From assembly GCF_003261175.1 (NCBI RefSeq), contig NZ_QLNP01000062.1:308150-372149 (forward strand): a stretch of 64,000 nt of DNA, written 5' to 3'. This document shows positions 12,388-27,394 of the stretch, piece after piece (position 1 is the first letter of the stretch; every line of letters begins with the position of its first letter). The notes below the pieces were generated by a model, which was not told the origin of the DNA, did not search any database, and saw nothing but the letters and a program-made list of their open reading frames with translations. The position numbers and the translations under genes were made by a program. The stretch is from Arthrobacter globiformis. GTDB taxonomy: Bacteria > Actinomycetota > Actinomycetes > Actinomycetales > Micrococcaceae.

Positions 12388-13032
12388 ATGGCCAAGACAC
12401 CTGCACAGCGGATCAAGAAGCACGGCGCGAAGGCCGCAGTACCCCAGCACCACCTGCCGCCGGTTATCAACCCCGGCACCGACCGTTCTCCGGCGAAGGC
12501 GCAAAACAACGCCAACCTGATCGTCATCGCCGGCGTGGTGGCCAGCCTGTTCCTGTTCTGGTACGTCCACCTGCTCACGCTGAACCAGCTCACCCAGCTG
12601 TCCGGCGGGCTGGCCATGCCCGATTCCCTGATCGGCGGCTTCGACACCGGCTACGCCGAGCAGCTGCGCCGCGCTTTGGACGGGGACGCGCGCGGTCAGC
12701 TCAACTACGTCCACAAGACGGCGGGCACCCTGTTTCCGCTGATCTTCGCCTTCACCTGGCTGCTTCTGATCGGCACCAACGTGGCAAAAAAGGCGCTGCG
12801 CTGGGCGCTCTGGGCACTGCCGCTGCTGTTCGTGGTGGTCCGGCTGTGGGGCAACGTCACCATTGACTCCATGATCGGGGCGGTAAACCTCGACGCCGGC
12901 CAGGTAGCCTTGGCGTCGGGCCTCACCGCGGCCGGCTGGGTACTGTTCGTGGCCAGCCTTCTCGCCGGCGGCGCCGCCGTGTTCCTGGGGCGCCGGCCCT
13001 CGAAGGAAGCCGCCGGTCCTCCGGCCGTCTAG
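12388..13032 (+). CDS. four-helix membrane protein, function unknown
   Basis: A 214-residue protein with a basic N-terminus (AKTPAQRIKKHGAKA) and about four hydrophobic helices: residues about 46-66 (IVIAGVVASLFLFWYVHLL), 108-128 (FPLIFAFTWLLLIGTN), 132-152 (ALWALPLLFVVVRLWG) and 175-200. No catalytic motif is recognised and no family name is assigned. The start ATG at 12388 lacks a clear ribosome binding site but has a -10-like box just upstream, suggesting a leaderless transcript. It converges with the DUF998 gene. Confidence 0.75.
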   Translation: MAKTPAQRIKKHGAKAAVPQHHLPPVINPGTDRSPAKAQNNANLIVIAGVVASLFLFWYVHLLTLNQLTQLSGGLAMPDSLIGGFDTGYAEQLRRALDGDARGQLNYVHKTAGTLFPLIFAFTWLLLIGTNVAKKALRWALWALPLLFVVVRLWGNVTIDSMIGAVNLDAGQVALASGLTAAGWVLFVASLLAGGAAVFLGRRPSKEAAGPPAV

Positions 13033-13055
13033 GCGCTCGGGCGGCCCAAGGGAGC

Positions 13056-13838
13056 CTAGGCGTTCCGGGCCGCTTGCGCCCGGGCGAAGGCCTTGCGCAC
13101 CTGCCGTTCCTGCCGGACGCGCTGGGCGATGACCAGGCCGGCGGCCGCGAGGCCAATCGTGATGGGGTAGCCCATCAGCCGTTCCAGGGTTCCGGGCTCG
13201 GGAACGTCCAGGCCGGTGACGCCCGCCGTGACGAGGGCGGCCGCGGACACTCCGCCGGCGGCCAGAATGAACCAGCCCAGCGGCGTTTGCCGGAGCCACA
13301 GGGCGCCGAGCAGCAGCAGCGCCAGGGAGCCAGCGATGAAGTACATGACGGCGCCTGCGTAGTGCCAGCCGGACTCCAGGTCCTCAGGGACCAGCCCCAC
13401 GACGATCGTGCCGGCGCCTGCGGTCCCGGTCAGGATCCGCGCCGCCACGGCCGAGTACCACGGCACCTCCCCGGAATGGCTGGCCATGACCTGAACGCGG
13501 GCCCGGGCGGCCACCCGCAGCAGTGCCGAGCTGAGAAGCAGCGCGCCAAGCAGCATCCCCAGCCCCTGAACCACGAAGGAGGCGTTCATCAGCACGTGCA
13601 GCGGCGAACAGATGCTGCGGCCGCCGTAGAGCCCGCAGGTGACGGCACCGAGGTCGCTGATGAGACCGGTCCGCCTGCTGTAGGGCTCGGGTCCGGCCCA
13701 GGCGCCGATGACCGCGGCCTCCGCCATGAAATATTGGACGACGCTGAGCACCGCCCACGCCCCGATGTATTGCCGCGTGGAGGCGGTGTCTGGCAGGAAC
13801 GTTGCCCGGGCGGTGGGGACTTCAGCTGCGGCGGCCAT
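13056..13838 (-). CDS. DUF998 family membrane protein
   Basis: A 260-residue integral membrane protein with about six helices. The pattern YSRRTGLISDLGAVTCG near the N-terminus, followed by SPLHVLMNASFVVQGLGML, matches the DUF998 family, whose function is unknown. It starts at an ATG at 13838, about 85 bp upstream of the tRNA-Arg gene on the other strand, and its stop is 24 bp from that of the convergent membrane-protein gene. Confidence 0.8.
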   Translation of the reverse strand: MAAAAEVPTARATFLPDTASTRQYIGAWAVLSVVQYFMAEAAVIGAWAGPEPYSRRTGLISDLGAVTCGLYGGRSICSPLHVLMNASFVVQGLGMLLGALLLSSALLRVAARARVQVMASHSGEVPWYSAVAARILTGTAGAGTIVVGLVPEDLESGWHYAGAVMYFIAGSLALLLLGALWLRQTPLGWFILAAGGVSAAALVTAGVTGLDVPEPGTLERLMGYPITIGLAAAGLVIAQRVRQERQVRKAFARAQAARNA

Positions 13839-13924
13839 GCCAAGAGCGTAGTACGCGCGCTCACCTTGTATGCTTGTAAGCGTGCCCGAACGGGCCGGTC
13901 AAAAACCGGCCGCGGCGGGCACCC

Positions 13925-13997
13925 GCCCTCGTAGCTCAGTGGATAGAGCACGGCTCTCCTAAAGCCGGTGTCGTTGGTTCGATTCCAATCGAGGGCA
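13925..13997 (+). tRNA. tRNA-Arg (anticodon CCU)
   Basis: A 73-nt cloverleaf: acceptor GCCCTCG (13925-13931) pairs with CGAGGGC (13990-13996), discriminator A at 13997. The anticodon stem CGGCT/AGCCG encloses loop CTCCTAA with anticodon CCT at 13958-13960, reading AGG codons. GTTCGATTC forms the T loop. CCA is not encoded. The next coding frame begins within a few bases, so the tRNA may be cotranscribed with it. No integrase or att duplication is seen nearby. Confidence 0.96.
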
Positions 13998-13998
13998 C

Positions 13999-14535
13999 TT
14001 GAATCTGCAGCACCCGTCCGGGCTCCGCGACTATTTGCTGGGCAAAATGCCAGCTGACCCCTCATCCCCCGACCTCCCGCCGGCAGGCCGGTGGGCCGTG
14101 GAGCGGACCATGCTGGACCGGGCCGCGGGCACCCGCGGCACCTTTACCGGCGTCGTGATCTTTTCCCCCGACGGCGACGGCGGGCTCCGCTTCCACGAGG
14201 AGGGGACCGTGGTCTGGCCTGCTGCCGACGGCGGCACCTTCACCGGGCCGGCCACCCGCGATTACCTGCTCAGGCCCGCGGACACGCCAGACGCTCTGGA
14301 CATGCTGTTTCCCGACGGCCGGCCGTTCCACCGGATGAGCTTCTCCCCGGAGGCCAGCCAGGACCGGCACTGGTGCGATCCTGACACTTACCGCGTCACG
14401 TACGTCCGTCATGGCGAGGACCGGTTCAGTTACGTCTGGGATGTGACTGGCCCGCGCAAGGACCTGCTGCTGGAGTCCGTGCTGCGCCGGCTGCCGGCAA
14501 CGGTGGCAGCGGACGGGCTAGGCTCGAAACCGTGA
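13999..14535 (+). CDS. DUF6314 family protein
   Basis: Up to 178 residues. The pattern WAVERTMLDR, then GTFTGVVIFSP, RFHEEGTVVW, ATRDYLLRP, FPDGRPFHRM, CDPDTYRVTY and a final GPRKDLL fits DUF6314, a small protein of unknown function. The start is unsure: a TTG at 13999 lies right after the tRNA and keeps a family-like GLRDYLLGK segment; the ATG at 14047 gives 162 residues. The stop overlaps the Nudix gene start (GTGA), so the two are coupled. Confidence 0.75.
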   Translation: MNLQHPSGLRDYLLGKMPADPSSPDLPPAGRWAVERTMLDRAAGTRGTFTGVVIFSPDGDGGLRFHEEGTVVWPAADGGTFTGPATRDYLLRPADTPDALDMLFPDGRPFHRMSFSPEASQDRHWCDPDTYRVTYVRHGEDRFSYVWDVTGPRKDLLLESVLRRLPATVAADGLGSKP

Positions 14536-14942
14536 ATCCGCGCATCATCGTTTCCGCCGTGTGTGTCTACGACGCCGCGGGCCGACTCCTGACCGTGCGC
14601 AAGCGCGGCACGGACAAGTTCATGCACCCCGGCGGCAAGCCCGAACCCGGCGAGACCGCGGTGCAGGCCGCAGCCCGGGAGCTGCAAGAAGAAGTCGGCA
14701 TCATTGTCGATCCCCGCGAACTGACCCTGATGGGCGTGTGGCTGGCCGATGCCGCCAACGAGGCAGCCACGGAGATCGAAGCCACCGTCTTCACGGCGCC
14801 GGGCACCTGGGTGGCCCACCCCTCCGCTGAGATCGCCGAGATCCGGTGGCTGGACCTCGCGGCGGAGTGGCCCGGCGACCTCGCACCCCTGCTCAAGGAC
14901 CACATACTGCCGGCGCTGGCGGAAGCCGGCCCCTCGGACTGA
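14532..14942 (+). CDS. Nudix hydrolase
   Basis: A 136-residue Nudix-fold pyrophosphohydrolase. The Nudix box G-x5-E-x7-REL-x-EE-x-G is complete, beginning at GGKPEPGETAVQAAARELQE and ending EVGI, at about residues 34-56. The GTG start at 14532 overlaps the DUF6314 stop. Substrates of such short Nudix proteins range from 8-oxo-dGTP to NADH and cannot be told from sequence. It is convergent with the ABC exporter gene, which ends 1 bp away. Confidence 0.92.
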   Translation: MNPRIIVSAVCVYDAAGRLLTVRKRGTDKFMHPGGKPEPGETAVQAAARELQEEVGIIVDPRELTLMGVWLADAANEAATEIEATVFTAPGTWVAHPSAEIAEIRWLDLAAEWPGDLAPLLKDHILPALAEAGPSD

Positions 14943-14943
14943 C

Positions 14944-16857
14944 TCAGTACTTCGGAACCGCATCCTCCGCCACGGCCGTGGCCTCGGCGAACTGGGTCCG
15001 GTACAGCTCGGCGTAGCGCCCGTCCGCGGCCAGCAGCTCGGTGTGGGTTCCGCGTTCCACAATGTGGCCGTCCTCCACCACCAGGATGGCGTCAGCCGCG
15101 CGGATCGTCGAGAGCCGGTGGGCAATGACGACGGCGGTGCGGCCTTCCAGCGCCGCGCCCAGCGCCGCCTGCACGGCGGCTTCGTTCGTGGAGTCCAGCG
15201 CCGCGGTGGCTTCGTCGAGGATGACCACCCGGGGCTGGGCGATCAGCAGCCGGGCGATCGTGAGCCGCTGCCGTTCCCCGCCGGAGAGCCGGTAGCCGCG
15301 CTCCCCCACCACGGTTTCCAGGCCGTCGGGAAGGGAACGGATCATGGCTTCGAGCCGGGCCTGGCGCAGCACCGCCCACATGTCCTCGTCGGTGGCTTCC
15401 GGGCGGGCCAGCCTGAGGTTGGAGGCGATGGTTTCGTGGAACAGGTGCCCGTCCTGGGTGACCATGCCCAGGGTGGCGCGGATGGAATCGAAGGTCAGGT
15501 CGCGCACGTCCAGGCCGGAGGCCGGGCCGGTGCCGCCGAGGCGCACGGCGCCGGAGTCGACGTCGTACAGGCGGGACAGCAGCTGGGCCACTGTGGACTT
15601 GCCGGCGCCGGAGGACCCCACGAGCGCAACTGTCTGCCCGGGTTCCACCCGGAAGCTGATGCCGTGCAGCACTTCCTCGCCGCCGCGGGTGTCCAGCGTG
15701 GACACCTCCTCCAGCGAGGCCAGCGAGACCTTGTCCGCGGAGGGGTAGGAGAAGCGCACGTCGTCGAACTCCACGGCCACGGGGCCAGGCGGGACTGCCA
15801 GCGCACCCGGCTTTTCCTGGATGAGGGGCTCGAGGTCCAGGATTTCGAAGACCCGTTCAAAGCTGACCAGGGCACTCATGATCTCCACGCGGGCGTTGGA
15901 CAGCGCGGTGAGCGGCGCATAGAGGCGGGTGAGCAGCAGCGCCAGCACCACGACGTCGCCCGGCGCGAGCTGGCCGCCGATCGCGAGCCAGCCGCCCAGG
16001 CCGTAGACCAGGGCCAGGGCCAGCGCGGAGACGAGCGTCAGCGCGGTCACGAACGTGAACTGAAGCATGGCGGTCCGCACGCCGATGTCGCGGACCCGGC
16101 CGGCGCGAAGCGCGAACTCACGGGATTCCTCATCGGGCCGGCCAAAGAGCTTAACCAGGGTGGCGCCGGGGGCGGAGAAGCGCTCGGTCATCTGGGTGCC
16201 CATAGCGGCGTTGTGCTCGGCCGCCTCGCGCCGTAGGTCCGCCAGCCGGGACCCCATCCGCCGGGCGGGGATGAGGAAGATCGGCAGCAGGATCATGGCC
16301 AGCACGGTGACCAGCCAGGAGGTATTGAGCATCACCACGAGGGTGAGGATGAGGGCCACCACGTTGCTGACCACGCCGGACAGGGTTCCGGCGAACGCGG
16401 ACTGCGCGCCGATGACGTCGTTGTTCAGGCGGCTGACCAGCGCGCCGGTGCGGGTCCTGGTGAAGAACGCGATGGGCATTCTCTGGACGTGGTCGAACAC
16501 CTTGGTGCGGAGGTCCACGATGACGCCCTCGCCGATGGTGGAGGACAGCCAGCGGCTCACCATGCCCAGGGCTGCCTCAGCCACCGCCACACCGGCGATG
16601 AGGGCCGCCAGTCGGATCACCTCGCCGGCATCGGCGCGGGCAACAATCGTGTTCACCACCTGGCCGGCGAGGACCGGGGTGGCAACGGCCAGGAAGGCCA
16701 TGGCGACGGAGACGGCCACGAACGCGATCAGCCGTCCCCGGTGCGGCCGGGCGAAGCCCATGACGCGCTTCAGGGTCTCCTTGGAGAACGGCCGGGACCC
16801 GCTTTTGGCACGGGTGATGTTGTATAGCGAGCGCCAGGCGACGCCGTCCATGCTCAT
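14944..16857 (-). CDS. ABC-type exporter, fused permease and ATPase (MdlB/MsbA-like)
   Basis: A 637-residue half-transporter: an N-terminal six-helix domain and a C-terminal nucleotide-binding domain with Walker A GSSGAGKST near 414, signature LSGGERQR near 526, Walker B VVILDEATAAL near 545 and the H-loop AHRLST. Such proteins form dimers exporting lipids, peptides or drugs. It starts with ATG at 16857, overlapping the ABC-F stop by ATGA, so the exporter is translated with the ABC-F protein. Substrate unknown. Confidence 0.92.
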   Translation of the reverse strand: MSMDGVAWRSLYNITRAKSGSRPFSKETLKRVMGFARPHRGRLIAFVAVSVAMAFLAVATPVLAGQVVNTIVARADAGEVIRLAALIAGVAVAEAALGMVSRWLSSTIGEGVIVDLRTKVFDHVQRMPIAFFTRTRTGALVSRLNNDVIGAQSAFAGTLSGVVSNVVALILTLVVMLNTSWLVTVLAMILLPIFLIPARRMGSRLADLRREAAEHNAAMGTQMTERFSAPGATLVKLFGRPDEESREFALRAGRVRDIGVRTAMLQFTFVTALTLVSALALALVYGLGGWLAIGGQLAPGDVVVLALLLTRLYAPLTALSNARVEIMSALVSFERVFEILDLEPLIQEKPGALAVPPGPVAVEFDDVRFSYPSADKVSLASLEEVSTLDTRGGEEVLHGISFRVEPGQTVALVGSSGAGKSTVAQLLSRLYDVDSGAVRLGGTGPASGLDVRDLTFDSIRATLGMVTQDGHLFHETIASNLRLARPEATDEDMWAVLRQARLEAMIRSLPDGLETVVGERGYRLSGGERQRLTIARLLIAQPRVVILDEATAALDSTNEAAVQAALGAALEGRTAVVIAHRLSTIRAADAILVVEDGHIVERGTHTELLAADGRYAELYRTQFAEATAVAEDAVPKY

Positions 16858-18518
16858 TTGTTTTGCTCCATCTTGCCTGCCGCCAGTTCGGTGACGACGC
16901 CGTTGTCCACATTCCAGCGCACGTCCAGGCGGACGTTTTCCAGCAGCCGCCGGTCGTGGGTGACCAGCAGCAGGGCGCCGTCGTAGCTTTCCAGCGCTTC
17001 TTCAAGCTGCTCGATCGCCGGGAGGTCCAGGTGGTTGGTGGGCTCGTCCAGGACCAGCAGGTTCACGCCGCGGGCCTGCAGCAGGGCCAGGGCTGCGCGG
17101 GTCCGCTCCCCCGGCGACAGCGAGTCCACCGGCCGCGCGGTGTGGTCCGCCTTGAGGCCGAACTTCGCCAGCAGGGTCCGGACCTCGGCGGAGGTGTAGT
17201 CGGTCAGAACGGCTTCGACGGCGTCGGCCAGTTTGAGGTGGCCGGCCAGCAGCCCGCGGGCCTGGTCGATCTCGCCGATGGCCACGGAGACACCGCGAGA
17301 AGCGTCGCCGGAGTCCGGTTCCTGGGTTCCCAAAAGCAGCCGCAGCAGGGTCGATTTACCGGCGCCGTTGGGTCCGGTGATGCCGATCCGTTCACCGGCG
17401 TTGAGCTGCAGGTTCACCGGCCCCAGGGTGAAGCTGCCCTGCCGCGCTACGGCGTCGCGCAGCGTCGCCACCACGGAGCTGGAGCGGGGTGCCTGGCCGA
17501 TGCTGAACTGCAGCTGCCACTCCTTGCGCGGTTCCTCCACCACGTCCAGGCGGGCGATGCGCGATTCCATTTGCCGGACCTTCTGCGCCTGCTTTTCGGA
17601 TGACTCGGAGCTGGCGGCGCGGCGAATCTTGTCGTTGTCCGGGTTTTTCTTCATCGCGTTCCGGACGCCCTGGGAGCTCCATTCCCGCTGGGTGCGGGCG
17701 CGGGACACGAGGTCCGCCTTGGTCGCGGCAAATTCCTCGAACCGTTCGCGGGCGTGCCGGCGGGCCACTGCGCGTTCCTCCAGGAAGGCCTCGTAGCCGC
17801 CGTCGTACACGGCCACGGAGTTCTGGGCCAGGTCCAGCTCCACGATGGAGGTCACGCAGCGGGCCAGGAACTCGCGGTCGTGGGAGACCAGGACCGCGCC
17901 GCCGCGAAGCCCCTGCACGAAGGCTTCCAGCTTGGCCAGGCCGTCCAGGTCAAGATCGTTGGTGGGCTCGTCCAGAAGCACGACGTCGAAGCGGCTCAGC
18001 AGCAGGGCGGCGAGCGCCACCCGGGCAGCCTGGCCACCGGACAGCCCCGTCATTTCGGCGTCGGGGCCGACGTCCAGGCCCAAGTCCGCCAGGACGGGGG
18101 CAATCCGTTCGTCAAGGTCCGCGGCGCCGGAGGCCATCCACCGGTCAAAGGCCATCGAGTAGGCATCGTCCGCTCCGGCTGCTCCCGAGCCAAGGGCCTC
18201 GGCCGTGGATTCCATCTCTGCGGTGGCTTTGGCACAGCCAGTGCGGCGGGCGATGTAGGCGGCCACCGTCTCGCCGGTGAGCCGTTCGTGTTCCTGCGGC
18301 AGCCAGCCCACAAAGGCGTCGGCCGGCGCCAGGCTGACTGTGCCGTCCTGGGCCTGGTCCACGCGGGCAAGGAGCCGCAGCAGTGTGGACTTGCCTGCAC
18401 CGTTGGCGCCGACCACGCCAACAACGTCCCCGGGGGCCACTGTAAGGGACAGCCCGGAGAAGAGGGTGCGGTGATCATGACCGCCTGAAAGGTCCTTCGC
18501 AACAAGGGTTGCAGTCAT
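16854..18518 (-). CDS. ABC-F family ATPase
   Basis: A 554-residue soluble protein with two ABC domains and no membrane helices, the mark of ABC-F translation factors. Walker A motifs GANGAGKST (about residue 38) and GPNGAGKST (about 383), signatures LSGGQAAR and LSPGERTR, and Walker B LLDEPTNDLD and LVLDEPTNHLD are present, with a charged inter-domain linker. ABC-F members rescue stalled ribosomes or protect them from antibiotics; which applies is not settled. The ATG at 18518 is chosen (a TTG precedes it). Its leader holds a strong hairpin at 18574-18618, reminiscent of attenuation of resistance-type ABC-F genes. Confidence 0.92.
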   Translation of the reverse strand: MTATLVAKDLSGGHDHRTLFSGLSLTVAPGDVVGVVGANGAGKSTLLRLLARVDQAQDGTVSLAPADAFVGWLPQEHERLTGETVAAYIARRTGCAKATAEMESTAEALGSGAAGADDAYSMAFDRWMASGAADLDERIAPVLADLGLDVGPDAEMTGLSGGQAARVALAALLLSRFDVVLLDEPTNDLDLDGLAKLEAFVQGLRGGAVLVSHDREFLARCVTSIVELDLAQNSVAVYDGGYEAFLEERAVARRHARERFEEFAATKADLVSRARTQREWSSQGVRNAMKKNPDNDKIRRAASSESSEKQAQKVRQMESRIARLDVVEEPRKEWQLQFSIGQAPRSSSVVATLRDAVARQGSFTLGPVNLQLNAGERIGITGPNGAGKSTLLRLLLGTQEPDSGDASRGVSVAIGEIDQARGLLAGHLKLADAVEAVLTDYTSAEVRTLLAKFGLKADHTARPVDSLSPGERTRAALALLQARGVNLLVLDEPTNHLDLPAIEQLEEALESYDGALLLVTHDRRLLENVRLDVRWNVDNGVVTELAAGKMEQNK

Positions 18519-18573
18519 CAATCCATCCTCTCACCGCTGCCCGTTTTCACCCGAAAATCAGGCGGGCATGAAA

Positions 18574-18618
18574 GAACCCGCTGGTCCGGACTTGGGGGGT
18601 GTACGGACCAGCGGGTTC
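18574..18618 (-). promoter_or_regulatory. candidate attenuator hairpin in the ABC-F leader
   Basis: Perfect 15-bp arms (18574-18588 and 18604-18618) around a 15-base loop, followed on the minus strand by a short TTTC run. It starts only a few bases after the predicted transcription start and ends about 55 bp before the ABC-F ATG. This is the arrangement expected for a 5' attenuator or stabilising stem. Confidence 0.55.
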
Positions 18619-18626
18619 GACCACTT

Positions 18627-18655
18627 AGCATAGTTGAAGCGGCGCGCTACGTAAA
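18627..18655 (-). promoter_or_regulatory. predicted promoter of the ABC-F/exporter operon
   Basis: On the minus strand a -35 TTTACG (18650-18655) and a -10 TATGCT (18627-18632) are separated by 17 bp, each matching 4 of 6 consensus bases. The region also contains TAAAAT on the plus strand at 18652-18657, a possible -10 for the divergent HTH gene, so the two promoters may overlap. Confidence 0.45.
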
Positions 18656-18712
18656 ATCCAGGCCGGCGGGCCGCCACCTCGCACCGCCCCGCCCGTCACC
18701 AGAGAGCGTTCC

Positions 18713-19450
18713 ATGCCCCTACCCGCCAAGGCCTTCCAGCGCTGGCTGCACGGCGTCGCGCCGGACGCCAGCGTGGCTGATGTGGCCAGGGCGTCAGGGG
18801 TCAAGCGCACCACCCTGGCCCAGCAGCTGGTCCGCGGCAAGGTGGCCGAGGCAACCGTGGTGGGGATCAGCAGGGCTTTCAACATCAATCCCGTGGCAGC
18901 GCTGGGCTCCTTTGAGCCTTACCGGGATCTGGGAAAACCGCCGATCCCGCCCACGCTGCAGGAACTGGTCAGCCAGATCGCTACCGCGGATCTGCTGCAC
19001 GCCATCATCTCCCGCACCGAGCCGGACGCTGGCACAGGTAAAGGCACAGGGCCGCCCGGACTCAGCGCGCCTCCGCATGCCACCTCGGTGAAAAACTGGG
19101 TTGACGCGATCGACGACGGCGAGCTCCGGCACCGCGTCTCCACCGCCACCGGCGTCGCTCCCCAAAACTATTCAGCGCAACTGACCGCCAACCGGCTGGC
19201 CCCGGAACTGGCCGTCGCCACGTCCCGGGCTGCCGGCGTCGGACTTGCCAGCGGACTGGTGGCCGCCGGACTGGTGACGGAAGCCGAAGCCGGCTGGCCG
19301 CCAGGTGCCCGGCAGGCTGCCCTGGACAGCATGACCGACGGCGAACTGACCGTTCTGGCCGGCGAACGCCTCCAGGCGCTCGGCAAGACCTTGCGGCGGC
19401 AAGAACACGACCAACGACAAACCGAAACGATCTGGGAGAACCTCGGATGA
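18713..19450 (+). CDS. double helix-turn-helix protein, cassette copy 1
   Basis: A 245-residue protein of no family I can name. It contains two XRE-like HTH modules that align to each other without gaps: module 1 begins at W11 (RWLHG...ASGVKRTTLAQQL...SRAFNIN) and module 2 in the second half (NWVDA...ATGVAPQNYSAQL...SRAAGVG), sharing W, GV, QL and SRA at equal spacing. A variable linker of about 50 residues separates them. The C-terminus is charged and probably helical (QALGKTLRRQEHDQRQTE). The ATG follows AGAGAGCG. The stop overlaps the next gene by ATGA. A second copy lies at 20218-20964. DNA binding is inferred. Confidence 0.85.
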   Translation: MPLPAKAFQRWLHGVAPDASVADVARASGVKRTTLAQQLVRGKVAEATVVGISRAFNINPVAALGSFEPYRDLGKPPIPPTLQELVSQIATADLLHAIISRTEPDAGTGKGTGPPGLSAPPHATSVKNWVDAIDDGELRHRVSTATGVAPQNYSAQLTANRLAPELAVATSRAAGVGLASGLVAAGLVTEAEAGWPPGARQAALDSMTDGELTVLAGERLQALGKTLRRQEHDQRQTETIWENLG

Positions 19451-20181
19451 TTGAAATGCTGCAGTGGACCACCCTGATCGCGTCCGGGGCGGCCGCGCTG
19501 AGCAGAATCCCGAACCTGGTCCGCCGGAAGAACAGGTCCATTTTCTACGCTCTGGCGCTACTGACACTGGCCATCCTCCTCAGCATCGACGGTCCCTATC
19601 TGGCGATCGATGCCCTGCTCGGCGGTGCCAACGTGGCCAACCTGCTGCTGCGCTTCATCATCTTCGGGGCCATCTTTTTCCTTGCCCTTCGGATTGCCGC
19701 CGGGTTCGGGGACAGCCGCGGAATTCAGCTGATCCGGGGCCGCACCGGCATGCTTGCACTGGGACTGATTTCTACCGTGCTGGTGGTCTGCTTTGTCCTG
19801 ATGGACACGTCGGGATCGTCGGCGGGGCTCGTACACGTTGCGGCCAAGAATCAGCAGAACGCCCTCCTCGTGGAGTACTACGGCGCCGCCGGGCGTGCCT
19901 ATCCGGCATACGTGTGTCTCGCGATCCTGCCCGGGATGCTGCGGGCCATCCGGAGCCCGCTGCCCGCGCTGCTCCGGATGAGCGCGGCGCTTCTGGCAGT
20001 GGGCAGCATCGCGATCCCCCTTTCGCTGCTGTTCCCCCTCGTCCCGCCGGGGCTGGGGTTCCTGCGCTTCATCGTCAACTACACAGCGATCCTGTGCTTC
20101 GTCGTCGGCCTGGCACTCATCTGGGTGGCCAGCGGCCGGGCCGGCCGGAAGCACCGGCCGCTGCCCGCCGAACGCCACTAG
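19447..20181 (+). CDS. seven-helix membrane protein, cassette copy 1
   Basis: A 244-residue hydrophobic protein with about seven transmembrane helices (roughly residues 5-24, 31-55, 62-86, 99-120, 147-165, 172-196, 202-226) and a loop of about 26 residues between helices 4 and 5. It has no signal peptide and no catalytic motif. The pattern LAIDALLGGANVANLLLRF recalls the N-terminal membrane domain of MAB_1171c/DUF6545 proteins, which also accompany XRE-type regulators; this is by memory only. It is coupled to the HTH gene by ATGA. Its paralogue at 20961-21698 is about 40% identical by eye. Confidence 0.8.
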   Translation: MIEMLQWTTLIASGAAALSRIPNLVRRKNRSIFYALALLTLAILLSIDGPYLAIDALLGGANVANLLLRFIIFGAIFFLALRIAAGFGDSRGIQLIRGRTGMLALGLISTVLVVCFVLMDTSGSSAGLVHVAAKNQQNALLVEYYGAAGRAYPAYVCLAILPGMLRAIRSPLPALLRMSAALLAVGSIAIPLSLLFPLVPPGLGFLRFIVNYTAILCFVVGLALIWVASGRAGRKHRPLPAERH

Positions 20182-20217
20182 TATCGTTCCAATCAATCGT
20201 TCAGCAGAGAGCGTTTC

Positions 20218-20964
20218 ATGCCCCTCCCCGCCAAAGCATTCCAGCGCTGGCTAAATGGCGTGGCACCGGATACCAGCACGGCCGACATCTGCAGGGTCTC
20301 CGGGGTCAAGCGCACCACCCTCGCCCAGCAACTGGTGCGGGGAAAGGTTGCCGAGACTACAGTCGTGAGCATCAGCCGGGCCTACAACATCAATCCGGTC
20401 GCCGCACTGGCCACCTTTGACACGTACAGCGACCTCGCCAGCTCCTCCCTCCCTCCTTCAGACAAGGAACTGGTAAGCCAAATCGCCACCGTCGACCTGC
20501 TGCGGGCCGTCATCGTCCGCACCGCACCCACGGGCTCCACCGGCACGGAATCCATGGACCCGTGCCAGCCGGAACTGAGCCCGCCGCCGCATGCCACCTC
20601 GGTGAAGAACTGGGTTGACGCGATCGACGACGGCGAGCTCCGGCACCGCGTCTCCACCGCCACCGGCGTCGCCCCGCAGAACTACTCAGCACAGTTGACG
20701 GCCAACCGGCTCGCCCCGGAACTGGCCGTCGCCACCTCCCGGGCTGCCGGCGTCGGACTGGCCGGCGGACTGGTGGCTACGGGGCTGGTGACGGAAGCGG
20801 AAGCAGGCTGGCCGCGGGGCGCACGGCAGGCCGCCCTGGACCGGCTCAGCGACGGCGACCTGGCCGCCCTGTCCGGCGAACGCCTCCAGGCGCTGGGCAA
20901 GACCCTGCGGCGGCAGGAGCAGGACCAGGAGCAGACCGAAAGAATCTGGGAGAACCTGGTATGA
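20218..20964 (+). CDS. double helix-turn-helix protein, cassette copy 2
   Basis: Paralogue (248 residues) of the protein at 18713-19450. The first HTH half is about 80% identical, the linker is different in sequence and slightly longer, and a stretch of 60 residues from PPHATSVKNW to AAGVGLA is identical between the copies. The upstream 15 bases (AGAGAGCGTTTC then ATG) match those of copy 1. It starts 36 bp after the first membrane gene, so the four genes probably form one transcript. It overlaps the next gene by ATGA. Confidence 0.85.
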   Translation: MPLPAKAFQRWLNGVAPDTSTADICRVSGVKRTTLAQQLVRGKVAETTVVSISRAYNINPVAALATFDTYSDLASSSLPPSDKELVSQIATVDLLRAVIVRTAPTGSTGTESMDPCQPELSPPPHATSVKNWVDAIDDGELRHRVSTATGVAPQNYSAQLTANRLAPELAVATSRAAGVGLAGGLVATGLVTEAEAGWPRGARQAALDRLSDGDLAALSGERLQALGKTLRRQEQDQEQTERIWENLV

Positions 20965-21698
20965 GCGAGATTCTCCCGTGGATAACGCTGGTTGTTTGCG
21001 CCGGTGCCGCACTGGCCCGGCTTCCCAGCGCAGTGCGCGGCGTGAACCCCACCCTGTTTTTCATCTTCCTGCTAGCGACGGCCGCCGGGATCCTGAGCAT
21101 CGAACAGTTCTACGTGGCCATCGACGGTGCCCTCGGCGGCATCAACATTGCCCACGTTGTGCTGCGCCTGATTGTTTTCGCCACGATCTACCTCATCGCG
21201 GTCCGCGTCACGAAGGGGTTTGGCGCCCCTGACGCCCACCGCATGATCGCCGGACGTCCGGGGCTCGCCATGCTCGGGATTTTTTCGGCGGCCCTCGTGA
21301 CGGTCTTCCTCCTGATGGAACCGGCCGCCTCGTCGGTGCGCTTCAGGGACGCCGGCGCGGCCAGCGCCCGGAATGAAGCCCTGCTGCCGTACTACTGGGC
21401 TGCCGCGCGAGGCTACCTGGCGTACGTCTCCCTCGCACTGCTGCCTGCCCTGCTCCGCAGCGTCAAGGAAAGCCTGCCCCCGCTCGTCAGGACCGGGGCG
21501 GCCCTGATGGCGGCCGGAGCGGTGGCCACCGTGGCCGGCCTCTGCCTGGAATTCGCGCCTCCCCAGATCCTCGTGGTCGCGCCGGCGGTGAACAACGGGG
21601 CGGTGGTTTTCTACATTGCGGGCCTTGTTCTGGTCTGGCTGGCGCGCGTCAAGGCCGCCAGCCGCGGGGGTCACGGAACGTCATCTACCGAACGGTAG
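20961..21698 (+). CDS. seven-helix membrane protein, cassette copy 2
   Basis: A 245-residue paralogue of the protein at 19447-20181 with the same helix layout and the aligned landmarks AIDGALGGINIAHVVLRL, RPGLAMLG and YLAYVSLALLPALLRSV. Identity to copy 1 is only about 40% by eye, far lower than between the paired HTH proteins. The C-terminus is a short polar tail. The four-gene unit ends at a strong terminator at 21809-21852. Function unknown; a membrane sensor or partner of the HTH protein is the natural guess from the coupling. Confidence 0.8.
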   Translation: MSEILPWITLVVCAGAALARLPSAVRGVNPTLFFIFLLATAAGILSIEQFYVAIDGALGGINIAHVVLRLIVFATIYLIAVRVTKGFGAPDAHRMIAGRPGLAMLGIFSAALVTVFLLMEPAASSVRFRDAGAASARNEALLPYYWAAARGYLAYVSLALLPALLRSVKESLPPLVRTGAALMAAGAVATVAGLCLEFAPPQILVVAPAVNNGAVVFYIAGLVLVWLARVKAASRGGHGTSSTER

Positions 21699-21709
21699 CG
21701 GAGCGGGAT

Positions 21710-21738
21710 TCACAAAATCATTAGACCGTGAGAGAATC
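21710..21738 (+). promoter_or_regulatory. predicted promoter before the 21809-21852 terminator
   Basis: TTCACA (21710-21715, 5 of 6) and GAGAAT (21733-21738, 4 of 6) are 17 bp apart. A transcript from here would run about 110 nt to the terminator, as a small RNA or as the leader of the downstream transporter operon. Confidence 0.4.
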
Positions 21739-21808
21739 ATGAATGTGTGAAAGCAGTTGCTGCCTAGCTCACAAGCTGTGGCGCCTGCCGGATCGCACAT
21801 TGGGGGGA

Positions 21809-21852
21809 TGAGTGGTGGCGGCCGTTGGGGACCGCCCCCACTCAGCCTTTTT
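21809..21852 (+). terminator. rho-independent terminator
   Basis: TGAGTGG and GGCGG (21809-21821) pair with CCGCC and CCACTCA (21832-21844), with one mismatch, followed by GCCTTTTTT. It closes the HTH/membrane cassette array or attenuates the transporter leader. Confidence 0.8.
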
Positions 21853-21917
21853 AAGGGCCAGTTTCAGCCCCCGTATGATGGCGAAATAAACGTCTTTGCC
21901 AATGCGTTGCAGGCACT

Positions 21918-21953
21918 GGCACCGCGGGAGCCGGATCCGGCCGCCGCGGTGCC
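21918..21953 (+). promoter_or_regulatory. leader hairpin upstream of the cystine-type transporter
   Basis: Perfect 10-bp arms GGCACCGCGG (21918-21927) and CCGCGGTGCC (21944-21953) with the inner palindrome GCCGGATCCGGC at 21930-21941. It lies 33 bp upstream of the ATG at 21987 and just before the ribosome binding site GAAGAAGG, so it may modulate translation or stabilise the mRNA. Confidence 0.5.
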
Positions 21954-21986
21954 TGCCGCCGCAGCCTGAAGAAGAAGGTACCTGCC

Positions 21987-22820
21987 ATGAACCGTATCCA
22001 TTCCCGCCGCTCCGCCCTTGCAGCCACCCTCGCCGGACTGGCACTGGCTCTGACGGCCTGCGGCGGTGGCAGCGGCGGCGGAGGTTCCCAGGCTCCGGCT
22101 GCCAGCAGCTCGGACACCTCGCTCAGCGATGTGAAGTCCAAGGGCGAGATTGTCATCGCCACCGAGGGCACCTACAAGCCGTTCAGCTTCCACGCGGAGG
22201 GAGCGGGCGACCTGACCGGCTACGACGTCGAGATCGCGCGGGCCGTGGCCGACAAGCTGGGCGTGAAGGCCAACTTCCAGGAAACCCAGTTCGACGGGAT
22301 CTTCGCCGGCCTCGACGCCAAACGGTTCGACACCATCGCCAACCAGATTTCCATCAACGCGGAGCGCAAGGCCAAGTACGACTTCTCCAAGCCGTACACC
22401 ATCTCCACCGGCGTGATCGTGACCAAGGCGGACAACAACAGCATCACCAGCTTCGAGAGCCTCAAGGGCAAGACCACCGCCCAGTCGCTCACCAGCAACT
22501 TCTACAAACTGGCAGTGGACGCGGGAGCCAATGTGCAGTCTGTGGAAGGCTGGGCCCAGGGCGTGACACTGGTCCGGCAGGGACGCGTGGACGCCATCGT
22601 CAATGACAAGCTCACCTACCTCGACTACGTGAAGACCAATCCGGACGCCGGGCTGAAGATCGCCGCCGAAACCACCGAGAAGTCCGAAAGCGCCTTCGTG
22701 TTCCGCAAGGGCTCCACGGAGCTCACGAAGGCGGTAGACAAGGCGCTGGACGAGCTCCGCGCTGACGGAACGCTTGCCAAGATCTCGGAAAAGTACTTCG
22801 GCACTGACGTGTCCAAGTAG
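21987..22820 (+). CDS. amino-acid ABC transporter substrate-binding lipoprotein (cystine type)
   Basis: A 277-residue family-3 solute-binding protein. The signal peptide ends at the lipobox LTAC with Cys25, followed by a Gly/Ser linker. The stretches IATEGTYKPFSFH, LTGYDVEIARAVADKLG and TQFDGIFAGLDAKRFDTIAN are typical of L-cystine binding proteins (TcyA-like). It captures substrate outside the membrane and hands it to the permease encoded directly downstream. GAAGAAGG precedes the ATG. A structured leader of nearly 290 bp separates it from the preceding gene. Cystine specificity is inferred from resemblance. Confidence 0.88.
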   Translation: MNRIHSRRSALAATLAGLALALTACGGGSGGGGSQAPAASSSDTSLSDVKSKGEIVIATEGTYKPFSFHAEGAGDLTGYDVEIARAVADKLGVKANFQETQFDGIFAGLDAKRFDTIANQISINAERKAKYDFSKPYTISTGVIVTKADNNSITSFESLKGKTTAQSLTSNFYKLAVDAGANVQSVEGWAQGVTLVRQGRVDAIVNDKLTYLDYVKTNPDAGLKIAAETTEKSESAFVFRKGSTELTKAVDKALDELRADGTLAKISEKYFGTDVSK

Positions 22821-23486
22821 ATGCCGTTGAACTGGGACCTCATCTGGAGTTCCTTCGGCCCTATTGTCACGGGCGCAGTCACCGGCACCATCCCGCTGAC
22901 GCTCGCTTCATTCGCCATCGGCCTCGCGCTGGCGCTGCTGGTGGCACTGATGCGGTTGAGCCGGAACGCCGTCGTGTCGGGTCTGGCGCGGTTCTATGTT
23001 TCGGTGATCCGCGGCACCCCGCTGCTGGTGCAGCTTTTCGTGATCTTCTACGGCCTTCCGAGCCTGGGCGTGAAGCTCGATCCATGGCCTAGCGCCATCA
23101 TCGCCTTCTCGCTGAACATCGGCGGCTACGCCGCGGAGGTCATCAGGGCTGCCATCCTGTCGGTGCCCAAGGGCCAGTGGGAAGCCGGCCACACCATCGG
23201 CATGTCCCGTGCCCAGTCGCTGCGCCGCATCATCCTGCCGCAGGCCGCGAGGGTGTCTGTGCCGCCGCTGTCCAACACCTTCATTTCGCTGGTGAAGGAC
23301 ACATCGCTGGCCTCACTCATCCTGGTCACCGAGCTGTTCCGCAACGCCCAGCAGATCGCGGCGTTCAGCCAGGAGTTCATGGTGCTGTATCTCGAGGCGG
23401 CCCTGGTCTACTGGATCATCTGCCTGGCGCTGTCCTCCGGGCAGTCCGTGCTTGAAAGGAGACTGGACCGCTATGTCGCCCACTGA
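22821..23486 (+). CDS. amino-acid ABC transporter permease (cystine type)
   Basis: A 221-residue polar amino-acid permease of the His/Glu/Gln/Arg type with about five membrane helices. The conserved Y-V-x-x-I-R-G-T-P-L-L-V-Q motif (SVIRGTPLLVQLFVIFYGLP) and the EAA loop (EAGHTIGMSRAQSLRRIILPQA), which docks on the ATPase, are present. The ATG follows directly on the stop of the binding protein, and its 3' end overlaps the ATPase gene by 14 bp. It forms the membrane pore of the importer. Confidence 0.92.
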   Translation: MPLNWDLIWSSFGPIVTGAVTGTIPLTLASFAIGLALALLVALMRLSRNAVVSGLARFYVSVIRGTPLLVQLFVIFYGLPSLGVKLDPWPSAIIAFSLNIGGYAAEVIRAAILSVPKGQWEAGHTIGMSRAQSLRRIILPQAARVSVPPLSNTFISLVKDTSLASLILVTELFRNAQQIAAFSQEFMVLYLEAALVYWIICLALSSGQSVLERRLDRYVAH

Positions 23487-24303
23487 CGGAGCAGCACAGG
23501 CGGCACCCCACGGTGCCGCATCACAGGGCAGGCCGGTGCTGTCAGTCCGCAACCTCGCGAAGGCGTTCGGCAGCAACGTGGTGCTGCGGGACATCGACCT
23601 CGACGTGCGCCGCGGCAACGTCGTGGCCCTGATCGGCCCGTCGGGTTCGGGCAAGACCACCGTGCTGCGCTCACTGAACGGGCTGGAAACGCCCGACGCC
23701 GGTATAGTCACCTTTGCGGGTCCCGGCACCTCGGCGGGAACCGAGCTCGCGCTGGATTTCTCCGCCCGAGTCTCCAAGAAGGAGATTTCGGACCTGCGGG
23801 ACCGCAGCGCCATGGTGTTCCAGCACTACAACCTGTTCCCGCACATGACCGTCCTGCAGAACGTCATCGAGGGGCCGGTCCAGGTCCAGAAGCGCAAGCG
23901 GGCCGAGGCCGTGGCCGACGCCGAAAAGCTCCTGGCCCGGGTGGGGCTGGCGGACAAGCGCGACGCCTATCCGTTCGAGCTCTCCGGCGGCCAGCAGCAG
24001 CGCGTGGGCATCGTGCGTGCCCTGGCACTGAAGCCCCAGCTGCTGCTGTTCGATGAGCCCACGTCGGCGCTGGACCCGGAACTTGTCGGCGACGTTTTGG
24101 GCGTCATCCAGGAACTTGCCGAAGAGGGGTGGACCATGGTCATCGTCACCCACGAGCTTGCCTTCGCCCGCCAGGTGGCGGACGAGGTCATCTTCATGGA
24201 CGGCGGCCTGGTGGTGGAGCGCGGGCCGGCCGCCGAGGTCCTGCGGGCGCCGCGGCAGGAGCGGACCCGGCAGTTCGTCCGGCGGCTGCTGCACGAGTTC
24301 TGA
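23473..24303 (+). CDS. amino-acid ABC transporter ATP-binding protein (cystine type)
   Basis: A 276-residue ABC ATPase. Walker A GPSGSGKT at 55-62, Q-loop in MVFQHYNLFPHMTV, signature LSGGQQQRVGIVRAL near 172 and Walker B LLLFDEPTSALDPE identify the polar-amino-acid importer class (TcyC/GlnQ-like). The ATG at 23473 has GGAG upstream and overlaps the permease gene; the longer frame from 23452 lies wholly inside it. It has a short low-complexity N-terminal extension. It completes a three-gene importer and is convergent with the mannosidase gene. Confidence 0.93.
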   Translation: MSPTDGAAQAAPHGAASQGRPVLSVRNLAKAFGSNVVLRDIDLDVRRGNVVALIGPSGSGKTTVLRSLNGLETPDAGIVTFAGPGTSAGTELALDFSARVSKKEISDLRDRSAMVFQHYNLFPHMTVLQNVIEGPVQVQKRKRAEAVADAEKLLARVGLADKRDAYPFELSGGQQQRVGIVRALALKPQLLLFDEPTSALDPELVGDVLGVIQELAEEGWTMVIVTHELAFARQVADEVIFMDGGLVVERGPAAEVLRAPRQERTRQFVRRLLHEF

Positions 24304-24344
24304 CCGCCTTCTCACGGCCCCGGCCTGCTGTCGCCGGAAGGCCG

Positions 24345-27300
24345 TCAGCCGCGGGCGAGCCTCAGGGTCACCAGCTGGAACGGCCGCAGCGTGAGCTCCG
24401 CGGAGTCCACCCCGGTTACCACGCCCGTCGACTCGGCCGGACGCTCGAGCAGGTCCACGGCCTGGATGCCCGTCGCCGGGAAGTTGGCGGTCAGGCGTCC
24501 GGCCGATCGCTGGCCCAGTGATTCGTACAGCCGGATGATGACGTCTCCCGAGCCGTCTTCGGCCAGCTTGACGGCTTCGACCACCAGGGCCGGGTTGTCC
24601 ACCGTAACCAGCGCCTCGGCCGGGTGCGCGCCGAGCACCGTCCTCGGCGCGAGGTTGGCGCGGTAGCCCTCCTCGACGGCCTCGGCGATTCCCGCTGCCG
24701 GCCGGACCCAGACATCAAGCACGTGCCTGCCGCGGTCGGCCTGGGGGTCGGGGAACTTGGCCGCCCGCAGCAGCGAGAGCCGGACGGTGGTGGTGGTCCC
24801 GCCGTCGTCCCGGACGGTGCGGGCGACGTCGTGCCCGTACGTGGAGGCGTTGGCGATGGCCACGCCGTACCCGGGTTCTGAAACGTGAATCCAGCGGTGC
24901 GCGCAGATCTCGAACTTGGCAGCCTCCCACGACGTGTTCACATGGGTCGGCCGGAAGACGTGGCCGAACTGGGTTTCCGCCGCCGACCGGTCCGCCCTCA
25001 GGTCCAGCGGGAATCCCAGCTTGAGCAGCTTCTCGCGCTCCTGCCAGTCAACCTCGGTGGAGATCCCCAAGGACGGGCTGCCCGCCGCCAGGGTGATGCG
25101 TTGGGTGATGCGGGACGAACCGGTGAGCCGTTCCACCACGACGACGGCGTCCCCGCCGTTCCGCTCCAGCCTCACCTCCGCGGCGTCGGTAAGGCTGGTG
25201 ACGTTTCGCCGGTAGAACTCGTCGATGTCCCAGGCGTCCCATTCGTTGGGGGTGTCCCGGTGCAGCTCCAGGTGGTTTCCGAACTGGCCGGGTGCGATGG
25301 CTTCGCGGCCTGTCCCGTGGTCCCGCAGGGAGGTCAGCAGCCCGTTGTCATCCAATACGGCACGGATGATTCCGTTGTCCAGGACAAAGCCGCCGTCCAG
25401 CGGTGTGGCCTGCACCTCATCCTGGCTTGGCGCGGCGTCCTGGGCTGGCGATGACACGGCGGCCGTGAGCGCTGGAACTCCAAGGCGCGCGTGCGGGCTC
25501 GCGTTGAGCAGGAACTCCTGCGTCCCCTCCCCCAGGACGGCTGCGGCCGCCTCGCTGATGAGGGCTTCCAGCCCTTTGGCGACGGCCGCGTAGTTGCGTT
25601 CGGCGTCCTGGTGCACCCAGGCGATGGCGCTGCCGGGCAGGATGTCGTGGAACTGCTGCAGCAGGACCAGCTGCCACAGCCGCTTCAGCTCGGCCGCGGG
25701 GTACGTGTACTTCCCGCCGGAGCGGACGGCGGCCGTGGCGCACCACAGCTCCGCCTCGCGGAGGAGGTGCTCGGACCGGCGGTTGCCCTGCTTGGTCCTG
25801 GCCTGGCTGGTGTAGGTGCCGCGGTGCAGCTCAAGGTACATCTCACCCACCCAGACCGGCAGCGCTTTGTACTCTGCTTCGGCCTGCTCAAAGAAGCTGC
25901 GCGGCGTTCCGATCCGGACTTTCGGCGACCCTTCGAGGTCGGCCGCGCGGTGCGCGGCGGCGACCATCTCCCGCGTCGGTCCGCCACCGCCGTCGCCATA
26001 GCCGAAGGGGACGAGCGAGATGGTGCCGTGTCCGTGGTCCCGGTAATTGCGCTCGGCGTGCGCCAGATCCCGGCCGCTGAGCTCGGAGTTGTACGTGTCC
26101 ACCGGCGGGAAGTGCGTGAAGACGCGGGTGCCGTCAATGCCTTCCCAGTTGAAGGTGTGGTGCGGCATCCGGTTGATCTGGTTCCAGGAGATCTTCTGCG
26201 TCAGGAACCAGCGGCTCCCGGCGGCCTTGACGATCTGCGGCAGGGCTGCGGAGTACCCGAAAGAGTCCGGTAGCCAGGCTTCCCTGCACTCGACGTCGAA
26301 TTCCTTGAGGAAGAAGTTCTTGCCTTCGACGAACTGCCGGGCCATGGCCTCACCGCCGGGCATGTTGGTGTCCGACTCCACCCACATGCCGCCCACGGGA
26401 ATGAACTGGCCGGATTTCACCTTCTCCCGGATGCGGGCGAAGAGCTCCGGGTAGTATTCCTTGATCCAGGCCAGCTGCTGCGCGGAGGAACAGGAGAACA
26501 CGAAGTCCGGGTCCTCGTCCATGAGGGCAACCACATTGGAAAAGGTCCGGGCACACTTGCGCATGGTTTCCCGGACAGGCCACAGCCAGGCCGAATCGAT
26601 GTGCGCGTGTCCGGTGGCCAGCAGCCGGTGGGCCGAGGCGTAGGCAGGCCTGGCCAGCACCTCCGCCAGCGCCTCGCGCCCGGCGGGCGCTGTGCCGGCG
26701 ACGTCGTCCGGGTCCATGAGGTCCATCATCCGTTCCAGGGCACGGATGATTTCGTGCCGGCGCGGCAGTTCGGTGGGCAGCTCATGCATGAGACCGCTGA
26801 GTGTCAGCACGTCCTGCTGGAGTTCCCACACTGCCCGGTTCAGCTCCGCGATGGCGATGCTGCCCAGACGGTACTGCGGTTCGGTGCCCGCGGTGGCCTT
26901 GTCTCCGTACGGAGTCGGCGCGAAGCTCCAGCCCTGGGCAACATCGGGGTTGGCTGCTGCCTCCACATAGAAATCGACGGCGAGCCCGCTGCCCAGGAGC
27001 TTCAGCGGGATGTGCTGGTTGCGGGGCGAGATGGCCTTGATGATGCTGCCGTCCGGGCGCCAGGCGATTCCTTCGCACTGGAAGCCGGGAATCTCCGTGG
27101 TGAACCCGAGGTCCACGACGATTTCCACCTCGGTGTCCGGTGCTGTTCCCCAGGCATCCGGCACCTCTCCCTGAAGGCGCAGCCACTTTGTGCTCCAAGG
27201 GCGCCCCCACGCGGCACCTTGTTCCTGCGGCAGGAAGTCCTGGCGAAGGGCCTCCAGAACCGGGACGGGTTCGTCCGGAACGTCCCAGCTGGTCAGCTCC

Positions 27301-27392
27301 AGGGGCACGCTGCGCCCGTAAATGGCGGGGGTGATCCGTTCGCGGAGAAAGCGGTCCAGTCGGACTTCCGTGATCCGGCGGTCGTCGTGCAA
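24345..27392 (-). CDS. alpha-mannosidase, glycoside hydrolase family 38
   Basis: A 1015-residue cytoplasmic GH38 enzyme that removes alpha-linked mannose, using Zn and a retaining mechanism. The catalytic domain holds HIDSAWLWPVRE near residue 262 (zinc ligands) and the WLPDSFGYSAALPQI segment near 377 with the nucleophile aspartate; a helical domain and the long beta-sandwich domains follow. No signal peptide is present, so it probably acts on imported oligosaccharides. It begins with TTG at 27392, preceded by AAAGAGG inside a palindrome. It stands alone between the cystine transporter and fdhD. Confidence 0.93.
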   Translation of the reverse strand: MHDDRRITEVRLDRFLRERITPAIYGRSVPLELTSWDVPDEPVPVLEALRQDFLPQEQGAAWGRPWSTKWLRLQGEVPDAWGTAPDTEVEIVVDLGFTTEIPGFQCEGIAWRPDGSIIKAISPRNQHIPLKLLGSGLAVDFYVEAAANPDVAQGWSFAPTPYGDKATAGTEPQYRLGSIAIAELNRAVWELQQDVLTLSGLMHELPTELPRRHEIIRALERMMDLMDPDDVAGTAPAGREALAEVLARPAYASAHRLLATGHAHIDSAWLWPVRETMRKCARTFSNVVALMDEDPDFVFSCSSAQQLAWIKEYYPELFARIREKVKSGQFIPVGGMWVESDTNMPGGEAMARQFVEGKNFFLKEFDVECREAWLPDSFGYSAALPQIVKAAGSRWFLTQKISWNQINRMPHHTFNWEGIDGTRVFTHFPPVDTYNSELSGRDLAHAERNYRDHGHGTISLVPFGYGDGGGGPTREMVAAAHRAADLEGSPKVRIGTPRSFFEQAEAEYKALPVWVGEMYLELHRGTYTSQARTKQGNRRSEHLLREAELWCATAAVRSGGKYTYPAAELKRLWQLVLLQQFHDILPGSAIAWVHQDAERNYAAVAKGLEALISEAAAAVLGEGTQEFLLNASPHARLGVPALTAAVSSPAQDAAPSQDEVQATPLDGGFVLDNGIIRAVLDDNGLLTSLRDHGTGREAIAPGQFGNHLELHRDTPNEWDAWDIDEFYRRNVTSLTDAAEVRLERNGGDAVVVVERLTGSSRITQRITLAAGSPSLGISTEVDWQEREKLLKLGFPLDLRADRSAAETQFGHVFRPTHVNTSWEAAKFEICAHRWIHVSEPGYGVAIANASTYGHDVARTVRDDGGTTTTVRLSLLRAAKFPDPQADRGRHVLDVWVRPAAGIAEAVEEGYRANLAPRTVLGAHPAEALVTVDNPALVVEAVKLAEDGSGDVIIRLYESLGQRSAGRLTANFPATGIQAVDLLERPAESTGVVTGVDSAELTLRPFQLVTLRLARG

Positions 27393-27394
27393 TG

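Follow-up and report, generated by a model that had tools for sequence, protein, structure and literature searches.

Two tandem H-M cassettes and their distribution

We analyzed a 64,000-nucleotide stretch of Arthrobacter globiformis DNA (contig NZ_QLNP01000062.1, positions 308,150 to 372,149; hereafter, the window, meaning the whole stretch) that contains two head-to-tail gene cassettes. Each cassette encodes a predicted DNA-binding protein with two helix-turn-helix (HTH) domains, which we call H, followed by a polytopic membrane protein, which we call M.

18713..19450, + strand: H1, predicted double-HTH DNA-binding protein, copy 1, 245 amino acids (open reading frame [ORF]; 79% identical to H2)
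19447..20181, + strand: M1, polytopic membrane protein with a MAB_1171c-like transmembrane region and without DUF6545, 244 amino acids (ORF; profile match to MAB_1171c relatives)
20182..20217: spacer between the cassettes, 36 bp (read from the sequence)
20218..20964, + strand: H2, predicted double-HTH protein, copy 2, 248 amino acids (ORF; PHROG 16278; AlphaFold2 model)
20961..21698, + strand: M2, polytopic membrane protein, copy 2, 245 amino acids (ORF; 40% identical to M1)

Both H-M joints are ATGA overlaps, and the ORFs lie exactly where an earlier reading of this DNA, made from the sequence only, had placed two coupled cassettes 36 bp apart. When used as queries against the genome, H2 and M2 recovered these two copies of each protein and no others. 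H and M are real genes: of the 395 family genomes, 211 carry H, representing 15 of 32 genera. Matches to H were found in 77 genomes of the same genus, and the first 20 listed of the 184 unmatched genomes begin with other genera. Across the order, H was detected in 13 of 198 genomes, 11 of which belong to the same family and two of which carry one HTH domain only.

The sequence-only reading had proposed counting how often the two genes adjoin, and the pair proved to be linked. M lies directly 3' of H in 67/67 Arthrobacter-type loci (retrieved with H as query from Arthrobacter, Pseudarthrobacter, and one other Micrococcaceae genome), in some of them in pieces, and among 52 loci from other genera and plasmids, a credible M follows H in 43, leaving nine exceptions. 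Of the 107 H/M joints scored, 88 place the start of M at -4; three joints were mis-scored. Tandem cassettes occur in six of the 67 Arthrobacter-type loci (L005-L008, L010, and L069). Relatives are also encoded in 30 plasmid records from Arthrobacter, Clavibacter, Paenarthrobacter, Curtobacterium, Pseudarthrobacter, and Frondihabitans, one of which (1.35 Mb, 72% identical) is of the chromosomal type. In phage records, tblastn found no relative of H2 or M2 at E values up to 0.01, nor of a plasmid H at E values up to 1.

A tree of 62 H proteins separated 39 chromosomal from 23 plasmid-type rows by one branch (support, 89/90; present in 87% of bootstrap trees), with labels that were inferred for some contigs and with long branches for some divergent rows. 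Our best reading is that one H-M lineage became fixed in the chromosomes of Arthrobacter and relatives and was duplicated in the lineage of the window. We also compared H copies by sliding profiles of third-position identity. Between H1 and H2, this identity was 0.33-0.60 in segments starting at columns 1-106, 0.70-0.93 in segments starting at columns 121-181 (i.e., columns about 121-210), and 0.60-0.70 past the segments starting at 181. In the same middle part of L006, the two H copies of that locus were 0.84-0.90 identical to each other, whereas L006 copy 1 was only 0.70-0.80 identical to its orthologue in the window. Copy-1 orthologues of L006 and the window thus dip in the middle part from 0.78-0.97 elsewhere in the first half, and copy-2 orthologues show no dip (0.83-0.93). 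Because this third-position likeness exceeds what protein constraint alone explains, the half of H that encodes the second HTH domain (HTH2) seems to have been homogenized by gene conversion, with copy 2 as the main donor, during the divergence of the M copies. In the tandem locus L007, the first H gene, from position 6485, reaches a stop codon partway, which suggests that copy 1 can decay.

The M and H proteins

Neither M1 nor M2 matched the MAB_1171c family model NF042915 (NCBIfam; curated cut-off, 100 bits) at E values up to 10, and PF20182 (DUF6545) gave no match in either protein. The sequence-only reading had held that neither product of the cassette belonged to a family that could be named, and it had called for a profile search and a comparison with MAB_1171c/XRE pairs. 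For M, that search supplied a family. An hhalign comparison of an M profile (106 sequences) with a profile of 21 MAB_1171c relatives gave a probability of 98.4% and an E value of 8.9e-15, as a single comparison, over 218 columns, and 14 other membrane families from the same loci used as decoys, with smaller alignments of 2-12 sequences each, reached at most 0.7%. The M profile was built without L033 (M truncated where the contig ends), L068, L070, and L071 (H in pieces), and L069, L101, and L136 (mis-scored joints). When searched against 246 genomes, the M alignment matched 10. It retrieved the MAB_1171c gene of the window's own genome (E 2.7e-15) and the MAB_1171c loci of genomes G416, G496, G517, G533, and G596, at the same places as direct MAB_1171c searches. 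Furthermore, 22 of 36 single M proteins matched NF042915 at E values up to 1 (best, 1e-12), with one member matching the runner-up family, and Pfam gave scattered weak matches of no more than two members per family. In the 398-residue MAB_1171c protein of L162, DUF6545 occupies residues 238-368, after the membrane region, and M ends where DUF6545 begins. By these comparisons, M is a homologue of the MAB_1171c membrane region without the DUF6545 domain, and the comparison with MAB_1171c/XRE pairs was an apt suggestion.

M is polytopic, as the sequence-only reading had it, but the seven helices counted there are unproven, with a hydropathy scan giving five segments in M1 and seven, partly overlapping, in M2. 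Invariant or almost invariant positions of M include R20, Y51, D55, and N62 (M2 numbering). The last three form a candidate sensing site, and a similar run, VPAVYYGIDSLLGGQN, is found in the MAB_1171c protein of the window's own genome.

MAB_1171c-type membrane proteins were detected in 26 of the 148 class genomes searched, with 19 above the cut-off. A same-strand ORF with an HExxH motif lies near MAB_1171c in 16 of the 25 loci scored (31 tried), and an HTH_3 gene stands in a row with MAB_1171c in L162, the sole locus inspected for this feature. The likeness to H-M includes, besides the homologous transmembrane region, a nearby HTH-type gene (seen in L162, where XRE, ImmA-like, and PAP2-like genes line up with MAB_1171c) and, in a minority of both kinds of locus, a related PAP2-like gene. 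In eight of 131 H stretches, this membrane gene runs on the other strand and overlaps the end of M (the record names it in L255), and its homologue lies near MAB_1171c in five of 35 stretches (31 distinct places). The two systems differ in that M1 and M2 are without the DUF6545 domain of the L162 protein and without an NF042915 match, H has two HTH domains, and an HExxH motif is missing from both H and M. Knocking out MAB_1171c in M. abscessus reduced biofilm mass to about half, according to the part of PMC8707978 consulted, a phenotype that fits an envelope role and carries little information on mechanism. In L199, from the window's genome, a MAB_1171c-like gene and an ImmA-like (HExxH) gene that precedes it occupy 4893-5897 and 5897-6409; the MAB_1171c-like gene scores under the family cut-off, matches DUF6545 only weakly, and has transposition-like genes nearby.

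Residues 8-64 of H1 matched PHROG 16278, "HTH DNA binding protein," at an E value of 4.8e-13, and H2 matched the same family at 6.9e-16. An AlphaFold2 model of H2, built from a 41-sequence alignment, had a mean predicted local distance difference test (pLDDT) score of 91.3 and a predicted template modeling (pTM) score of 0.85, and it contains the following elements.

20230..20409, + strand: first five-helix HTH domain of H2, residues 5-64 (model helices 5-15, 21-28, 32-41, 46-55, and 60-64)
20599..20781, + strand: second five-helix HTH domain of H2, residues 128-188 (model helices 128-136, 141-149, 153-161, 167-177, and 182-188)
20851..20958, + strand: long C-terminal helix of H2, residues 212-247, 36 residues (model)

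The two HTH domains of H are homologous to each other (E 9.7e-11). Scans of the window proteins alone with Pfam, NCBIfam, and PADLOC yielded nothing useful, including no HTH Pfam match for the window H proteins. Among 37 H members, weak Pfam matches at E values up to 1 were to HTH_26 (10/37), Phage_CI_repr (9/37), and HTH_3 (9/37). We read H as a predicted DNA-binding regulator with two tandem, probably Cro/CI-like, HTH domains and a long helix, the latter being a candidate element for dimerization or contact with M. An H profile gave no match to the ImmA-like protein of L162, and the HExxH motif is absent from the sequences of H1, M1, H2, and M2. The sequence-only reading had pictured a cytoplasmic DNA-binding protein working with a membrane partner, and the two-domain HTH model, the coupled genes, and the kinship of M with a family that has an HTH_3 neighbor in L162 all agree with that picture.

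Two described systems offer further comparisons. In the part of PMC6540685 that treats ICEBs1, the HTH regulator ImmR holds transfer genes off until its partner, ImmA, inactivates it. H-M may share this logic of repressor and partner by analogy, not by membership, and the difference is that ImmA is a metalloprotease whereas M is a membrane protein without HExxH. COG2856-Xre modules, as presented in the portion of PMC2701414 consulted, similarly couple an HTH gene to a partner gene, but their partner is a predicted Zn protease and that of H is a membrane protein.

Neighboring genes and a proposed role for the pair

We searched for transfer markers (VirB2-like, SCO6880, Tad ATPase, CHAP/M23 hydrolase, AAA ATPase, and others) in 39 plasmid-type loci, comprising named plasmids and contigs carrying a plasmid-type H. 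This type IV secretion system (T4SS) count excludes L138, the same plasmid as L072, which duplicates L072 and L160 and in which no H was found. Of the 39 loci, 30 have relatives of conjugation- or pilus-operon genes close to H. In 24 loci, the transfer genes are upstream of H on the other strand, adjoining H or one small HTH gene away; in L148, L150, L151, L154, L254, and L153, they are on the other side of H. Six of the 39 loci are without M.

Building on gene structure, linkage, homologies, the H model, and plasmid context, all observed or computed, we infer repression, H-M contact, orientation, a ligand, and targets in the following scheme. With moderate confidence, we favor H-M as a two-gene transmembrane signaling switch in which a membrane receptor controls a DNA-binding repressor. 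H would be a regulator, most likely a repressor, of the adjacent operon and of itself, and M its membrane partner, most likely receptor-like and of common ancestry with the MAB_1171c transmembrane region. M would sense an envelope signal and relay it by direct contact, capturing or releasing H, so as to lift or impose H repression of the neighboring operon. Because plasmids of related soil bacteria carry the pair next to genes for DNA transfer, H-M probably acts as a simple switch from envelope signal to gene expression, and since the neighboring operon there encodes type IV secretion or pilus components, its output on plasmids would be conjugation, which H-M probably gates. In the duplicated chromosomal lineage, the divergence of the M copies and the likeness of the HTH2-coding halves suggest that two M inputs may feed one DNA specificity. 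In sum, H and M form a genuine and conserved pair, predicted to be regulatory, that varies the MAB_1171c/HTH theme. A role in conjugation control is plausible for it, and on actinobacterial plasmids it is a candidate for regulating conjugation. The MAB_1171c family itself is unexplained and scarcely named in the literature searched, where DUF6545 is not named. A compact, DUF6545-free version with one DNA-binding partner, often found with conjugation operons, gives that family a testable role.

Several observations weigh against this interpretation. No transfer markers were found in nine of the 39 plasmid-type loci (L152, L155-L159, L161, L250, and L255). The T4SS count rests partly on unspecific markers, those of L150, L154, and L251 being hydrolase- or ParA-like alone, and the marker queries were drawn from seven of the 39 loci, with 23 of the other 32 matching. 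Several of the loci are near-copies of one another, transfer genes fill much of such plasmids, and the 30/39 is a plain count with no chance level computed. The marker search covered the 39 plasmid-type loci only, and the neighbors of the chromosomal copies, those of the window included, are other kinds of gene. Upstream of plasmid H genes we identified conserved blocks only and no operator. H occurs without a credible M in the nine exceptions among 52 loci (L099, L100, L101, L153, L155-L158, and L161). The PAP2 linkage is a minority feature, homology between the H profile and the XRE protein of L162 was not found (15% probability), and the orientation of M, like its helix number, is unproven.

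Beside H1 in the window, two genes are read in the opposite direction, as the sequence-only reading had described.

16854..18521, - strand: divergent ABC-F gene (context, outside the system; ORF)
14944..16857, - strand: ABC exporter gene (context; ORF)

An ABC-F gene was called beside H, divergently, in 65 of the 67 Arthrobacter-type loci, the two exceptions being L024, without upstream DNA, and L046, with an overlapping frame, and in g7 loci the exporter is the divergent neighbor of H. These arrangements favor a local sensing role for H-M in the service of the divergent ABC-F/ABC exporter operon, with a response for instance to membrane-active antibiotics. We consider this unlikely, given that the g31, g32, g25, and g24 loci and the plasmids have other neighbors, with ABC-F not beside H in the other genera inspected, and that two g19 genomes without an H match retain an exporter of like sequence. 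The same contexts led us to reject service to the ABC-F operon only, and they do not support a special tie to this operon.

The pairing of an HTH protein with a membrane protein on plasmids could also describe an addiction or defense module, with M as a membrane-damaging toxin and H as its repressor or antitoxin. H does resemble phage HTH proteins (PHROG 16278), and one of 36 M proteins weakly matches Phage_holin_3_6 (E 6.2e-4). M is, however, kin over its length to a larger family of membrane proteins, H is kept by 77 same-genus genomes, and PADLOC gave no known defense family, its sole match being DpdE for H2 at an E value of 0.013 over 61 residues; this explanation strikes us as quite improbable. 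Less credible still is M as an accessory of the conjugation apparatus, serving for example in entry exclusion or envelope anchoring, with H merely its autorepressor. The transfer genes beside the pair in 30/39 plasmid-type loci would suit such a role, but chromosomal copies persist with other neighbors, and MAB_1171c relatives stand with HExxH genes in 16 of 25 scored loci.

A C-loop hairpin upstream of H

The region between H1 and the divergent ABC-F gene contains a conserved hairpin with a C-rich loop and, on the same strand, two promoter-like elements.

18574..18618, within 18556-18628, - strand: hairpin with a C6 loop (read on the - strand), predicted body of a small RNA (18-nt arms, 94% complementary, 9 nt between them)
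18627..18632, - strand: -10-like TATGCT for the predicted hairpin RNA, 8 nt before the stem (TANNNT conserved)
18651..18658, - strand: conserved GATTTTAC, putatively -35-like, with an 18-nt spacer to the -10-like element (conserved block)

The last block may alternatively, as GTAAAATC on the + strand, be a -10-like element for H1. The folding energy of the hairpin corresponds to a z score of -5.49 on the - strand and -3.61 on the + strand. Of 119 loci examined, 82 have a hairpin with a C5-6 loop upstream of H: the window, every one of the 66 Arthrobacter-type loci that include upstream DNA (L024 was out of the count), and 15 of 52 others. The upstream genes of these loci are quite different. 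Plasmid-type loci and the g24 loci L097-L103 and L137 showed no such hairpin upstream of H, and the best E value that the covariance model gave them was 0.0079. All 14 modeled pairs show compensatory changes, and 97.7% of alignment cells pair, versus 79.7% in shuffled and at most 51.2% in slid versions. In the window's genome, the model had one convincing match (E 8.9e-22; next, 1.07), and it matched 194 of the 395 family genomes at E values up to 0.001; some weaker matches without the C loop are other hairpins. These results make the C-loop hairpin a well-supported structured element.

A TANNNT motif occurs 4-9 nt before the stem on the - strand in 82/82 loci and on the + strand in 2/82 (shuffled rate, 0.104), and a T-rich tail follows the stem in 36/82 and 1/82, respectively. 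The 82 loci share ancestry and are not independent trials. We held the hairpin less likely to be read on the + strand by these counts. It is probably, judging from these sequence features, an undescribed short RNA, 6C-like in style and with one stem-loop, although a generic promoter scan called none at the site and the T-rich tail is absent in 46/82 hairpins. It may alternatively be a DNA operator. We rejected the hairpin as an ABC-F leader, given its presence upstream of H in loci without a divergent ABC gene, and as the known 6C RNA, given that RF01066 had no match at E values up to 5 in 13000-28000 of the window; two subthreshold 6C matches in the window's genome are both elsewhere. The 6C RNA (Rfam RF01066), as described in the part of PMC4046766 consulted, is likewise actinobacterial with a C-rich loop on a stem, but its model has two C-rich stem-loops and the window hairpin has one. 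In two g19 genomes without an H match, the hairpin adjoins an exporter-like gene, so that it can exist apart from the H-M pair. Away from H, hairpin-model matches in L219, L221, and L222 (g22) and in L230 (g7) have two adjacent C-rich stem-loops, a 6C-like architecture, and in the g22 genomes inspected (L243 and L244) the two-stem-loop site adjoins ribosomal-protein genes.

Only tentatively do we extend these observations to a broader scenario, a minimal one-step signaling class in which a receptor-like seven-transmembrane protein directly controls a double-HTH repressor. Plasmids of Micrococcales would use it to gate conjugation by an envelope or intercellular signal, and chromosomes might have taken it over, gaining the adjacent covarying C-loop small RNA as a further layer of control.

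Downstream of the second cassette, the sequence-only reading had reported a strong terminator.

21806..21847: inverted repeat followed by TTTTT, 3' of M2, possible terminator (16-nt arms, 88%)

The repeat and its TTTTT are present, but its strength was not borne out: a terminator scan called none at this repeat, and the folding energy of 21770-21860 on the + strand is unexceptional (z -0.85). A second TTGGGGGG run lies at 21800-21812, 3' of M2, and the hairpin model gives no match there. Past the ABC exporter side of the locus, a transfer RNA gene occupies 13925-13997.

In some loci, other genes follow H or the pair. In genus g24, further H copies (L099, L100, and L101) are followed by a small cysteine-containing protein in place of M. 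In genus g3, H without M is followed by a very long one-helix protein (L155-L158), to which three of these loci add another one-helix protein without a Pfam match, perhaps making this a surface-protein locus. On a Clavibacter plasmid (L074, 9842-11005), the pair is followed by a gene annotated, by annotation only, as an HBL/NHE enterotoxin family protein.

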